A stretch of 64,000 nucleotides of DNA from Bacteroidia bacterium (lineage in GTDB: Bacteria > Bacteroidota > Bacteroidia > Chitinophagales > JAUHXS01), in the NCBI GenBank assembly GCA_030426955.1, contig JAUHXS010000003.1, positions 1-64,000 on the forward strand, read 5' to 3'. Position numbers and translations under genes: made by a program. Positions 2,414-48,929 of this stretch are shown here, one piece after another. Numbering within the stretch: the stretch's first letter is position 1; each line of letters starts with the position of its first letter. Under the pieces are notes generated by a model. It worked only from the letters and a program-made list of their open reading frames with translations, did not search any database and was not told where the DNA came from.

Positions 2414-4330
2414 ATGATGTTAAAAGGTCTCTCAACTTTTTTTATCATTTTATTTTGGTGTAGTTCTATTTGGGCACAGATGGAATACCACAACTGGTAT
2501 TTTGGAAACAAAGCTGCTATAGGCTTTGACATAGATAATAAGCCTTCACCCTTGACAGATAGCGAAATGAGATCTACAGAAGGAGTTGCCTCCATCTCAG
2601 ATAAAGACGGTAATTTATTGTTTTACGCCCATGGTCATAACGCTTGGAACAGAGACCACGATGATATGGAAAATGGTAATGGGTTACTTGGAGGATCTGG
2701 AATGGCTGGAGGATCTGGAACACAGTCTACCCTTATTGTACCTCAACCTAATAGTGATAGTTTATATTACATATTTACCACGACAGATATTGGAGATCCA
2801 GTAGGTTATGTTCATTACTCAATTGTTGATATGTCTTTAGATGGAGGACTTGGTGCCATTAATGCTACCAAAAATGTTCAGCTACAAGATAATATTGGTG
2901 AAAAGACCACTGTAGCTAGGCATTGCAACAAAGAAGATTATTGGATTATATCTCATGGTCGTAATGATGCCAACTTTTATGCTTGGCAACTTAGTGCATC
3001 TGGTTTGGGCACACCCATTATATCTAATGTAGGTAGCATACACGATAATGCATCTATGAATACCAGTATAACAGGATATATGAAAGTTTCCCCCAATAAT
3101 AGATTAATAGCACTGGCAGTTAATGATACTGGAGGTCCAACACCGAATACTGCTAAAGTAGGTTATCTAGAAGTGTTTGACTTTGACCCATCAACTGGGA
3201 TTGTCTCTAATGCTAGGCACATTCCAGATGTTTCTCGACCGTACGGCGTTGAATTTTCTCCAGACCATAGTAGACTATATGCTGGAAGTATCGATGGTGC
3301 TATAGGAGAGCTATATCAGTATGACTTATTAAATAATCTAGGAGAGCCTTTGACAGAGGAACAAATAAAACTTTCTGAATACGTTACACACCCTGGAGGT
3401 GGCTTTGGAGCAATGCAACTCGGACCAGATAGCAATATTTATGTTGTTTCTGGGTTTGGATCGCAGTTTTTGGGGATTATTACCGATCCCAATGGCCTAG
3501 GTCTAGACAGCTATGAAGAGGATGCTATCGATTTACTGACTGGAATTAATTATCTTGGGTTACCAAACTATACAAAAGAGGTCTATATTAAAGCATCTTT
3601 TGAAATAGCTGATGATACGATTTGTGCTGGAGAAAGCATTACTTTTAACAATGTAAGTAAAAATTATCCCGACTCATTTATTTGGCATTTTGGAGATGGA
3701 ACAACTTCTACCAGTAAAACCCCATCACATATATATAATGACTCAGGCTCCTACCAGGTGCTCTTAATTGTATCTTCTTACTGTGAGCCTAATGATACAG
3801 CTATATCAAACATTTTAGTTGAAGCAGGAATAGAAGTGAATGCTTCAGAGGACACTACTATTTATGAAGGCGATACAGCTACACTTCGAATTGAGCTAGG
3901 TGTTGGGAATAACAATGTCAGTTGGTCTCCTGAACAAAGTCTAAGTTGTGATAGTTGCTTAATTACAAAAGCATTTCCTCAGGTTACAACTACATACTAT
4001 ATAACCAGCAGCTACATTGGGTGTTCAAAAACAGACTCTGTAACCGTAACAGTATCGAAAGAGCAAATTTGTGACTTTTATCTACCTAATGCTATTGCCA
4101 CAAACTCCCCAACTAACAATAAGCTAAGCACAAATGGCAATATCTCAACGGGTGTTATAACAATTTATGATAGATTTGGAAAACAAGTATATAAAACCAA
4201 CATTGAAGATAAAGATTACTGGAACGGCATTGCTAATAATGGTGAATTACTTCCGAGTGGTGTGTATATATATCATATTCAAAGTGAGGTATGTTCGTTA
4301 ATAACTGGAAATGTAACTTTAATTAATTAA
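2414..4330 (+). CDS. Secreted PKD-domain protein, T9SS type B sorting signal
   Basis: A signal peptide (residues 1-22, ending SSIWAQ) leads a 638-residue exported protein. Residues ~25-385 look like a beta-propeller of WD/lactonase type (for example SPNNRLIALAVND and FSPDHSRLYAGS). Residues ~395-470 are a PKD domain (FIWHFGDGTTSTSKTPSHIY). The last ~85 residues, with ITIYDRFGKQVYKT, WNGIANNGELLPSGVYIYHI and a final beta strand, are the gliding-motility-type (type B) T9SS sorting domain. It is therefore expected at the cell surface or in the medium. The next cargo gene begins 2 bp after the stop, so the two are probably cotranscribed. The cargo's binding or enzymatic role is unknown. Confidence 0.88.
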   Translation: MMLKGLSTFFIILFWCSSIWAQMEYHNWYFGNKAAIGFDIDNKPSPLTDSEMRSTEGVASISDKDGNLLFYAHGHNAWNRDHDDMENGNGLLGGSGMAGGSGTQSTLIVPQPNSDSLYYIFTTTDIGDPVGYVHYSIVDMSLDGGLGAINATKNVQLQDNIGEKTTVARHCNKEDYWIISHGRNDANFYAWQLSASGLGTPIISNVGSIHDNASMNTSITGYMKVSPNNRLIALAVNDTGGPTPNTAKVGYLEVFDFDPSTGIVSNARHIPDVSRPYGVEFSPDHSRLYAGSIDGAIGELYQYDLLNNLGEPLTEEQIKLSEYVTHPGGGFGAMQLGPDSNIYVVSGFGSQFLGIITDPNGLGLDSYEEDAIDLLTGINYLGLPNYTKEVYIKASFEIADDTICAGESITFNNVSKNYPDSFIWHFGDGTTSTSKTPSHIYNDSGSYQVLLIVSSYCEPNDTAISNILVEAGIEVNASEDTTIYEGDTATLRIELGVGNNNVSWSPEQSLSCDSCLITKAFPQVTTTYYITSSYIGCSKTDSVTVTVSKEQICDFYLPNAIATNSPTNNKLSTNGNISTGVITIYDRFGKQVYKTNIEDKDYWNGIANNGELLPSGVYIYHIQSEVCSLITGNVTLIN

Positions 4331-46757: not shown

Positions 46758-47561
46758 TCAAGCAAGAACCTTCTTAATTTTCACTAAATCTTCCAACAAT
46801 CTTTCTAGCAGATTTAATTGAAGCATATTTGCTCCATCTGACTTTGCATTGGCAGGATCAGGATGCGTTTCAATAAAGATGCCATCAGCACCCGATGCAA
46901 TGCCTGCTTTGGCAATAGTTGAAATCATTTCTGGCTGTCCACCCGTTACACCTGAACTTTGGTTGGGTTGTTGTAATGAATGCGTACAGTCTAATACAAC
47001 TGGCACATCAAACTTTTTCATAATGGGAATATTTCGAAAGTCCACTATTAAATCTTGATAGCCAAAAGTTGTTCCGCGTTCCGTTAAAACCACTTGATTA
47101 TTTCCTTCATTTTTGACTTTCTCAACTGCAAACTGCATCGAAGCTCCAGATAAAAATTGACCTTTTTTAATATTGACAACCTTACCAGTTTTTGCAGCTG
47201 CAACTAAAAGATCTGTCTGGCGACATAGAAAAGCTGGTATTTGTAGGATATCGACATACTTCGCAGCCATTGATGCCTCTTCAGGAGAGTGAATGTCAGT
47301 CGTTATTGGCACATTTAGCTCTTTTTTAATTCTAGCTAGAATCTCTAGAGATTCTTTATCTCCAATTCCTGTAAAAGAATCTGCTTTGGATCTATTGGCT
47401 TTTCTGTAAGATGCCTTAAAAACAAAGGGAATGTTTAGCTTTTCTGTTATTGATTTTACATATTGAGCGACTTGAAAAGTAGTTTCTTCATTTTCGACAA
47501 CACATGGTCCAGCAATGAGAAAAAACTGACTGTTACTTGGTTGAAGGATGGTATTGATCAT
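46758..47561 (-). CDS. kdsA: 3-deoxy-8-phosphooctulonate synthase (KDO-8-phosphate synthase)
   Basis: KdsA condenses arabinose 5-phosphate with phosphoenolpyruvate to KDO-8-phosphate, the precursor of the lipopolysaccharide inner core. The 267-residue TIM-barrel protein has the family start FFLIAGPCVVENEE, the substrate segments FKASYRKANRSKADSF and TTDIHSPEEA, LTERGTTFGY, and the C-terminal GIFIETHPDPANAKSDG. Length is normal. The REP-like palindrome at 47583-47605 begins 21 bp upstream of its start. Confidence 0.96.
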   Translation of the reverse strand: MINTILQPSNSQFFLIAGPCVVENEETTFQVAQYVKSITEKLNIPFVFKASYRKANRSKADSFTGIGDKESLEILARIKKELNVPITTDIHSPEEASMAAKYVDILQIPAFLCRQTDLLVAAAKTGKVVNIKKGQFLSGASMQFAVEKVKNEGNNQVVLTERGTTFGYQDLIVDFRNIPIMKKFDVPVVLDCTHSLQQPNQSSGVTGGQPEMISTIAKAGIASGADGIFIETHPDPANAKSDGANMLQLNLLERLLEDLVKIKKVLA

Positions 47562-47582
47562 AATATAAAAAACCTTATTGCT

Positions 47583-47605
47583 ATTCGTAGCTTGTAGCTA
47601 CGAAT
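47583..47605. repeat. REP-like palindrome, left of the transposase gene
   Basis: Arms ATTCGTAGCT and AGCTACGAAT surround TGT, a perfect 10-bp stem. The 23-bp element is the exact reverse complement of the one at 48249-48271, so the two are in inverted orientation around the transposase gene. Confidence 0.85.
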
Positions 47606-47632
47606 GTAAATATATTTTCTGTTGCTGATCAC

Positions 47633-47649
47633 AGCTTATAACTACGAAT
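47633..47649. repeat. Degenerate REP-like half copy
   Basis: AGCTTATAACTACGAAT matches the right part of the palindrome at 47583-47605 (AGCTTGTAGCTACGAAT) with two changes. It stands just past the transposase stop. Confidence 0.5.
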
Positions 47650-47659
47650 AAACATAACA

Positions 47660-48205
47660 TTATTCAATGATATCAATTTTCAATAAACTCAACATGTCAC
47701 TATACGCTCTTGCACTTGAGTAAATATAGTCATAATCATTATCAACAACACGTGCTCTTATTGGATTGTTGTGAATATAATCTAACTTTTGATCTATGAA
47801 TGCATTACTAATTAGTTCTTTGGGTTGATTTTCGTGTGTCCAAAGTTGATATTTTGTATTACGTTTATGCTTTGTTGCTGCCCTTTCAAACATAAATAAT
47901 AACCACTCTTTTCGACTCTCTCTTCCCTCTTTTATCGCTTTTATAATTTGTTTGCTCGTATACGTTTTAAACTCTTTTATTAAAGTGCTTAAATCTGTCA
48001 TTTCTGATGATAAGATACAGTGCACATGGTTGCTCATTATTACATAGGCATGTATTCGCAGCCCTTTTTCTCTTTGACAATATCTGAAGCTATCTATGAT
48101 AATATCTCTATAAGTGCTACGACTAAATATATCTATCCAATAAACCACTTGAAATGTCAGGTAATACATTCCATGCTGATTGTCTATCTTATAGCCTCCA
48201 GACAT
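47660..48205 (-). CDS. REP-associated tyrosine transposase (RAYT, Y1 HUH family)
   Basis: This single-strand DNA-cutting enzyme of the Transposase_17/IS200-like type is 181 residues long. The HUH metal site is H60 and H62 (MSNHVHCIL), and the likely nucleophile is Y143 (QKLDYIHNNPIRARVV). RAYTs are domesticated relatives of IS200/IS605 transposases that act on REP palindromes. Consistent with that, an identical 23-bp palindrome stands on each side in inverted orientation (47583-47605 and 48249-48271), plus a degenerate copy next to the stop. All catalytic motifs look intact. Confidence 0.92.
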   Translation of the reverse strand: MSGGYKIDNQHGMYYLTFQVVYWIDIFSRSTYRDIIIDSFRYCQREKGLRIHAYVIMSNHVHCILSSEMTDLSTLIKEFKTYTSKQIIKAIKEGRESRKEWLLFMFERAATKHKRNTKYQLWTHENQPKELISNAFIDQKLDYIHNNPIRARVVDNDYDYIYSSARAYSDMLSLLKIDIIE

Positions 48206-48248
48206 AATTGCTAATTTAATTATTTAGACTTGATTGCTGGTAGTTATT

Positions 48249-48271
48249 ATTCGTAGCTACAAGCTACGAAT
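48249..48271. repeat. REP-like palindrome, right of the transposase gene
   Basis: Arms ATTCGTAGCT and AGCTACGAAT surround ACA. It lies between the transposase gene start and the end of the upstream secreted-protein gene, and mirrors the left copy base for base. Confidence 0.85.
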
Positions 48272-48282
48272 AGCGTGGGGTA

Positions 48283-48840
48283 TTATTCATCATACCTTGA
48301 AAAAACTCCCACAATAACATCATTCTCAGTCTTGAATACTATGTCTAATCCAATTCGCTTATTATCCTTAAAGACGATTAGTTTAAAAAAATCTTCACCT
48401 TTTAAATTATCCGTATAACTATCGTATGATTTCTTAAATGTACTTTTAAACATTTCAATATTACTTCCCAGCCTAATAGTTCTAGAATTGATCTCAAGAG
48501 AGAGTGAAGAGTCCTTATATAAGGAAAATTCTTTTAGCAAATATTTATTGCTTTCAGGGTTTAATATAAAAGAAGTGTAATTTGTCATATTCTTATCATA
48601 AAAATATATTTTAAACTGTTCACCGGTCAGTTCATCGATTCCCTCGTTTATTTTCATTGATTTCAATGTCACTTTTTTATCTTCCTTACTGCCTATCGAT
48701 AAACCCATAAGCTTTAATGAATCAATTTGTATTACATCATATGAAATGGAATCTATATTATTTCCGTAATAGTTAAAATCCTGAGCAAAAGCAATGCTGA
48801 ATAATAAACATGAGAATAAACTAGTTAGCCAAGTTGCCAT
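48283..48840 (-). CDS. Small secreted hypothetical protein, paralogue of the 48930-49445 product
   Basis: I start at ATG 48840, which gives a signal peptide (MATWLTSLFSCLLFSIAFAQ); a GTG at 48876 is in frame but would add a polar stretch. The mature protein (~165 residues) is beta-rich with no family I know. It shares with the next gene the pattern Y-x-V-I-x-I-D-S-L-x-x-x-G-L near the mature N-terminus. It is the last gene of the row descending from the mre operon before the transposase. The function is unknown; periplasmic or surface location is likely. Confidence 0.75.
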   Translation of the reverse strand: MATWLTSLFSCLLFSIAFAQDFNYYGNNIDSISYDVIQIDSLKLMGLSIGSKEDKKVTLKSMKINEGIDELTGEQFKIYFYDKNMTNYTSFILNPESNKYLLKEFSLYKDSSLSLEINSRTIRLGSNIEMFKSTFKKSYDSYTDNLKGEDFFKLIVFKDNKRIGLDIVFKTENDVIVGVFSRYDE

Positions 48841-48929
48841 TTGAATCAAATTTAGTTTTGAAGAATGGAAGAACACTAACCCTTGAAGTTAAAATTAGTG
48901 CAGACTCCTATCATACCTTGTAATTAAGG

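Follow-up and report, generated by a model that had tools for sequence, protein, structure and literature searches.

What is the compact element that stands between kdsA and a putative secreted-protein gene in this Bacteroidia genome, and has it acted on the DNA around it? Within the 64,000-nucleotide stretch that we analyzed (the window), a 695-bp unit (47580..48274, no strand assigned) holds a RAYT (TnpAREP) gene on the minus strand (47660..48205) that encodes a protein of 181 amino acids with an HUH motif (H60-V-H62), a catalytic tyrosine (Y143), and a YIHNNP motif. On the 3' side of the gene lies a perfect palindrome on the plus strand (47583..47605) that reads ATTCGTAGCT TGT AGCTACGAAT, with 10-bp arms and a 3-nt loop, and on the 5' side its exact reverse complement, likewise a perfect 23-bp palindrome, occupies positions 48249..48271 on the minus strand. 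An outer GCT, shared by both hairpins, extends the inverted identity across the gene from 23 to 26 nt (47580-47605 and 48249-48274; 26 of 26 positions identical). With up to three mismatches allowed, the palindrome pattern matched twice in the window and never in 100 shuffles, and the predicted folding energies of the two hairpins as single-stranded DNA were -9.3 and -9.7 kcal/mol (z of about -5; none of 200 shuffles as good). We consider it very probable that the unit is a REPtron, an HUH/Y1 RAYT gene set between inverted copies of the hairpin that its enzyme most likely recognizes.

A third, decayed hairpin copy (about 47622..47656, plus strand) adjoins the gene in the same orientation as the copy at 47583-47605. 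It has lost its 5' arm, keeps a nearly whole 3' arm together with the outer TTGCT, AGCTT, and CTACGAAT, and no longer forms this hairpin (-3.5 kcal/mol, equaled or bettered by 9 of 200 shuffles). The original prediction, made from the letters alone, had described an intact RAYT with H60, H62, and Y143, a perfect 23-bp palindrome on each side with the two copies mutual reverse complements, a degenerate half copy at 47633, and a position between kdsA and a secreted-protein gene. All of this was borne out, with the shared repeat extended to 26 nt, the half copy recovered as the decayed third copy, and the open reading frame scoring above the model cut-offs reported below. kdsA (46758-47561) was confirmed as one neighbor, and the other (48283-48876) has a signal-peptide-like start, as read from its translation, and no match in Pfam or NCBIfam. 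The unit nearly fills the intergenic gap, with 18 bp separating it from the kdsA start codon and 8 bp from the stop codon of the gene on the other side. Base composition gave no evidence that the unit arrived recently, as the third-position GC of the RAYT gene (0.286) lies inside the range of five neighbors (0.209-0.290). Separately, C runs, reading towards the hairpin, were frequent a few bases outside several RAYT hairpins, for example at 48275-48281 of the window.

Family searches placed the protein among the RAYTs. It scored 96.1 bits against the NCBIfam RAYT model NF047646 (cut-off, 80) and 33.2 against Pfam Y1_Tnp (cut-off, 23), and H60, H62, and Y143 were invariant columns among 26 aligned homologues. 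A PDB search with profile A1 gave a solved TnpAREP, 4er8, as the top match (E of 5.8e-8 for the whole chain, with no single stretch significant by itself). The same Pfam domain is shared by classical insertion sequences of the IS200/IS605 family, and copies of whole units occur in relatives, as set out below, which would fit an element moving by the ordinary IS608-type pathway. Hairpins at both ends of IS200/IS605 elements lie on the same strand. The ends of the window unit are inverted hairpins, and the protein reached only 26.5 bits against the NCBIfam IS200/IS605 transposase model (cut-off, 55) while exceeding the cut-off of the RAYT model, so that we regard a classical insertion sequence as very unlikely.

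Within the RAYTs, this REPtron comes closest to subclass 2.6 of Quentin (2018, PMC6006769), which corresponds to Bertels group 5 and, in the part of that paper available, has a listed length of 179 amino acids, a mostly Bacteroidetes distribution, and "atypical secondary structures" beside the gene. The subclass motifs NH[LIV]H and YIH[QN]NP are present in the window RAYT as NHVH and YIHNNP, and the W-Q given between them is absent, with W122-T in its place; W122 was invariant in 26 sequences, and the residue after it was Q, T, or R. Among named genomes, the best matches to the protein came from Maribacter and Tenacibaculum, with a Clostridia metagenome-assembled genome third at 27% identity. 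Five plasmid records matched, all below 60% identity and including Persicobacter, Bernardetia, and Salinivibrio. Phage records held no match to the protein, viral contigs held none to the palindrome pattern, and the PADLOC defense library contained no family for the unit. In gene as in layout, the window unit is an ordinary member of a known family.

We searched the genome of the window (G000; 3.41 Mb in 23 contigs, 97.4% complete) for further copies of the palindrome and found none elsewhere with up to three mismatches, with a variable-loop pattern, or with a shorter-stem pattern. A covariance model (R1) was built from nine hairpins of this genome and two relatives; 95.6% of their cells were paired and their covariation score was reached by none of 500 shuffles. 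Two other measures stayed within chance, namely pairs altered on both sides (matched or exceeded in 99 of 500 shuffles) and additional pair types (459 of 500). At E ≤ 1, a level at which some places are expected by chance, R1 found three places in G000, all within the unit and none beyond it, with 101 of 101 candidates scored. The same model at the same threshold found at least 20 places in G047 (five at its RAYT) and 20 in G011 (two at its RAYT), whose hairpins had been part of R1, and at least 21 in G005, at least six in G009, and seven in G013, whose hairpins had not. These places were counted by eye, with both strands of one place taken as one, and the figures for G047, G005, and G009 are lower bounds from the first 150 candidates.

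Because no further hairpin copy was found in G000, we see no sign of the window enzyme having acted in this genome. Such a picture could arise if the unit were a decaying relic, with a gene no longer acting and its dispersed hairpins lost so that only the flanking two remain; the lack of dispersed copies and the visibly decayed copy adjoining the gene are consistent with this. Against it, the gene is intact with its invariant residues present, and the flanking hairpins are identical at 26 of 26 positions, which is unexpected under long neutral decay. We therefore judge an inactive relic to be improbable and favor an intact, unamplified REPtron present once.

Besides the window RAYT, G000 contains two RAYT genes whose frames are open and whose identity to it is 46% and 42%, as well as a weak RAYT fragment at C5:547642. 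The second of these siblings, RAYT-3, scored below the cut-off of NF047646 (74.1 bits; cut-off, 80). RAYT-2 and RAYT-3 are each flanked on both sides by a hairpin of their own, other than that of the window RAYT. With up to one mismatch, the RAYT-2 hairpin core occurred at 12 places, six within 1.1 kb of the gene and six elsewhere. The RAYT-3 core occurred at seven places, of which the unit itself accounts for two, a stretch about 0.6 kb upstream of it for two more, and other contigs for three; backward-read control patterns gave no match for either core. Among these sibling hairpin places, the surroundings of 13 of 19 were read, and nine lay outside longer open reading frames while four overlapped one. 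Thus, the window RAYT is the only one of the three in G000 without further hairpin copies, and a genome with three RAYTs, two with such copies and one without, offers a natural test bed for the onset of amplification. One dispersed RAYT-2 hairpin lies outside longer open reading frames just past the end of the window (G000:C18:64331-64346, locus L084). It is lengthened by CACTATT/AATAGTG into a larger palindrome, and the same extension was seen at loci L081, L082, and L083.

To relate hairpin and enzyme more widely, we used RAYT loci from relatives. A RAYT match was found in 62 of 99 genomes (that of the window and 98 others of its order), and 72 loci were taken: that of the window RAYT, those of its two siblings, and 69 from the best remaining matches rather than from all matches. 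Three of these (L050, L054, and L076) had a flank shorter than 80 bases and were left out. An inverted pair with a score of at least 13 spanned the gene at 54 of the remaining 69 loci, and a control with the downstream flank reversed reached that score at 0 of 69 (top score, 11); at 15 loci no clear inverted pair was present. In a cross-locus control, the 95% value was 11, whereas the 99% value (26) and the maximum (29) were raised by pairings between near-identical loci; 19 of the 69 loci exceeded the 99% value. After six of the 54 loci were set aside for having no hairpin under the script rule, 48 were left for comparing protein with hairpin. Protein similarity and hairpin similarity were correlated across these loci (Mantel rho of 0.22, n = 48; 0 of 2,000 permutations as high) and also among 34 proteins less than 60% identical (rho of 0.14; 9 of 2,000).

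The closest homologue found among 395 genomes of the class is 62% identical to the window RAYT and belongs to another order (G266, locus L124). About 1 kb downstream of that RAYT, an array contains two hairpins, ATTCGTAGCT-TGC-AGCTACGAAT, whose arms are those of the window hairpin, and the flanks of the RAYT itself carry variants of the hairpin, with three mismatches on the 5' side and with a longer loop on the 3' side. Across nine genomes searched for the palindrome with up to three mismatches, G266 held 14 places, the window genome two, G465 two, G388 one (with its backward control also giving one), and five genomes none. By the simple flank score, 7 of 13 new class-level loci fell below 13, L124 included; the hairpin model at E ≤ 0.1 found at least one match in 9 of the 13, including all seven that fell below that score. 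On the basis of the same-arm hairpins of the closest homologue and the 14 related places in its genome, the window hairpin is the inherited partner of its enzyme, and this copy has simply not been amplified.

These comparisons also bear on whether the hairpins instead serve kdsA and the upstream gene as transcription terminators or mRNA hairpins, with no relation to the transposase. Both hairpins do stand at gene borders, just past one stop codon and just before the kdsA start, and the four of six distant RAYT-2 hairpins whose surroundings were read all lay outside longer open reading frames, two of them between convergent ones. An exact 26-nt inverted identity that spans the RAYT gene, inverted pairs at most of the related loci, and hairpins with identical arms near the closest homologue, which belongs to another order, all speak against such an origin; the homologues largely refute it, and we hold it to be highly improbable. 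The REPtron reading also fits the expectation in the original prediction that palindromes would accompany RAYT genes in relatives, which they did, both as pairs at 54 of 69 loci and as same-arm hairpins by the closest homologue. The prediction had also named a lack of other copies in the genome as an outcome that would count against it, and, taken literally, this is what the three-mismatch and covariance searches returned. Of its term "REP/RAYT unit," the RAYT unit therefore stands, given the inverted pairs of relatives, and the word "repetitive" does not hold for this hairpin in G000.

By analogy with the wider family, we infer that the window hairpin would be bound, cleaved, and moved by its enzyme. 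The hairpin would fold when the DNA is single-stranded and the enzyme would bind it; Tyr143 would then cleave beside the foot of the hairpin, most likely at the CT just outside both hairpins, which is part of the shared outer GCT, and joining of the ends could allow the hairpins or the unit to move or multiply. We looked for such a CT at 42 distinct stems drawn from the 48 loci. At the outer foot, a CT within 2 nt was present on both hairpins in 13 of the 42 (5.6 expected; 0 of 1,000 permutations). At the inner foot, it was present on both in four (3.9 expected) and on at least one in 19 (13.9 expected; 20 of 1,000). The stem ends were uncertain by 1 to 3 nt. With a 3-nt window at the outer foot, CT occurred on both hairpins in 17 stems (10.9 expected; 11 of 1,000), and GC and TG were enriched at least as strongly as CT. 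With GC and TG enriched too, these counts moderately support a rule of CT at the foot.

Comparison with described systems points to the same assignment and to several differences. The REPtrons of Nunvar (2010, PMC2817692), in the part of the paper available, likewise consist of an HUH/Y1 gene and two inverted palindromes with coevolution of protein and palindrome. Their REPs carry a GT(A/G)G head; the window palindromes have none at their 5' foot, GTAG occurring only within the palindrome and GCT lying outside both hairpins. Stenotrophomonas REPs are given there as 37 to 427 perfect copies per genome, in contrast to the window hairpin, for which no further copies were found. In the accessible text of Corneloup (2021, PMC8266576), the TnpAREP proteins of Escherichia coli, Stenotrophomonas, and Marinomonas belong to groups 2 and 3 and act on a single-stranded hairpin with cleavage at an adjoining CT; cleavage is shown there, whereas the CT beside the window hairpins is seen in sequence only, and the GTAG motif central to those systems is missing outside the window hairpins. 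That paper uses neither the term "group 5" nor the term "Bacteroidetes." Members of subclass 2.6 are described, in the available part of PMC6006769, as having hairpin copies elsewhere in the genome; we found such copies for both sibling RAYTs of G000 and for five relatives but not for the window unit. TIRYT genes in TIRtrons (PMC3733652, seen in part) also lie between inverted repeats, as in the window unit. Most TIRs share GGGG[AT][CG]A[CG] according to the text available from PMC6006769, and this motif was absent, as read by eye, at both borders of the window unit. REPtrons without a corresponding repeat family have already been published (PMC3733652, same excerpt), and abundant palindromes are not required. 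The window hairpins also do not take the REPIN or BIME form of a short spacer without a gene, as their spacer is 643 nt and contains the gene.

The accessible parts of PMC6006769 and PMC8266576 portray RAYTs as domesticated genes, mostly present in one copy and passed on vertically, whose units are immobile, and REPtrons in general apparently do not transpose as a unit (PMC6006769). We nevertheless observed copies of whole units in relatives. In G002, two units on one contig (C4; L035 and L060) lie 4.8 kb apart between unrelated flanks and share 99.87% identity across 752 bp. G052 carries two copies (92.8% over 684 bp) and G023 carries three (92-94% over 654-684 bp), again with unrelated flanks. 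The identity of the units ended about 3-10 nt beyond the hairpin foot in G002 and G052; the boundaries were less sharp in G023, and in both G082 and G095 similarity continued into further hairpins. Codon 6 is a stop in both G002 copies, and stops also interrupt two of the three copies in G023, so that, of these three best cases, only the G052 pair has both copies intact.

RAYT units at the same place with conserved flanks were found in two species each for L065/L066 (G034 and G070) and L031/L032 (G045 and G058), and these represent vertical inheritance. At one site of G034, a 1.5-kb RAYT-bearing stretch is absent in the sister species G070 and G081, and at another a 3.3-kb RAYT-bearing stretch is absent in G070, with both flanks 91-95% identical in each case. 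G088 and G020 have other sequence at the first site, with no blastn match to the RAYT gene, and hairpins are still present at this site. The absence of the RAYT-bearing stretches at orthologous sites may reflect either gain or loss. For the window unit itself, no empty site was available, as none of the genomes compared was of the same genus or family.

Short elements with two hairpins were found both in G000 and by the closest homologue. In G000, C9:94467-94575 (L080:968-1076) and C5:218994-219070 (L087:995-1071) each combine the 5' and 3' hairpins of RAYT-3 with a piece of its leader between them, and one retains the first codons of RAYT-3. The stretch before the 3' hairpin is imperfect in both, which indicates that they derive from a related unit and not from this very copy. 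In G266 (C225; L124:3016-3305), the array downstream of the RAYT is made of two tandem two-hairpin elements with a period of 151 bp, which match the 5' end of the unit at 86-88% over 58 bp and its 3' hairpin at 94-95% over 36-37 bp. Judged by their sequences, the RAYT-3-type and G266 elements look like internally deleted units in REPIN form. In the relatives of this subfamily, a unit may be copied whole between its hairpins, and loss of the intervening gene could then leave short two-hairpin derivatives.

Near-identical units of relatives that end at or near their hairpins, along with the short hairpin pairs, may be read as signs of whole-unit mobility. These observations raise the possibility that RAYT units of this Bacteroidota subfamily are, beyond being domesticated genes, live and compact mobile elements that move whole between their two inverted hairpins, that REPIN-like repeats are their internally deleted copies, and that the window unit is a minimal one that has not yet been amplified; we put this forward tentatively and somewhat doubtfully because some copies are broken and some units are inherited vertically. 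In the literature searched, which included few subscription papers and several sources available in part, we found no account of whole-unit copying or deletion derivatives for Bacteroidota RAYTs, and the novelty of either is unproven. If the reading is true, the Bacteroidota branch would be a place to watch REP-type repeats arise from a transposable element. As a separate observation on locus structure, the Maribacter arenosus locus (L077) contains two RAYT-like stretches (1739-2240 and 2980-3502) that share one orientation and lie about 1.3 kb from each other.
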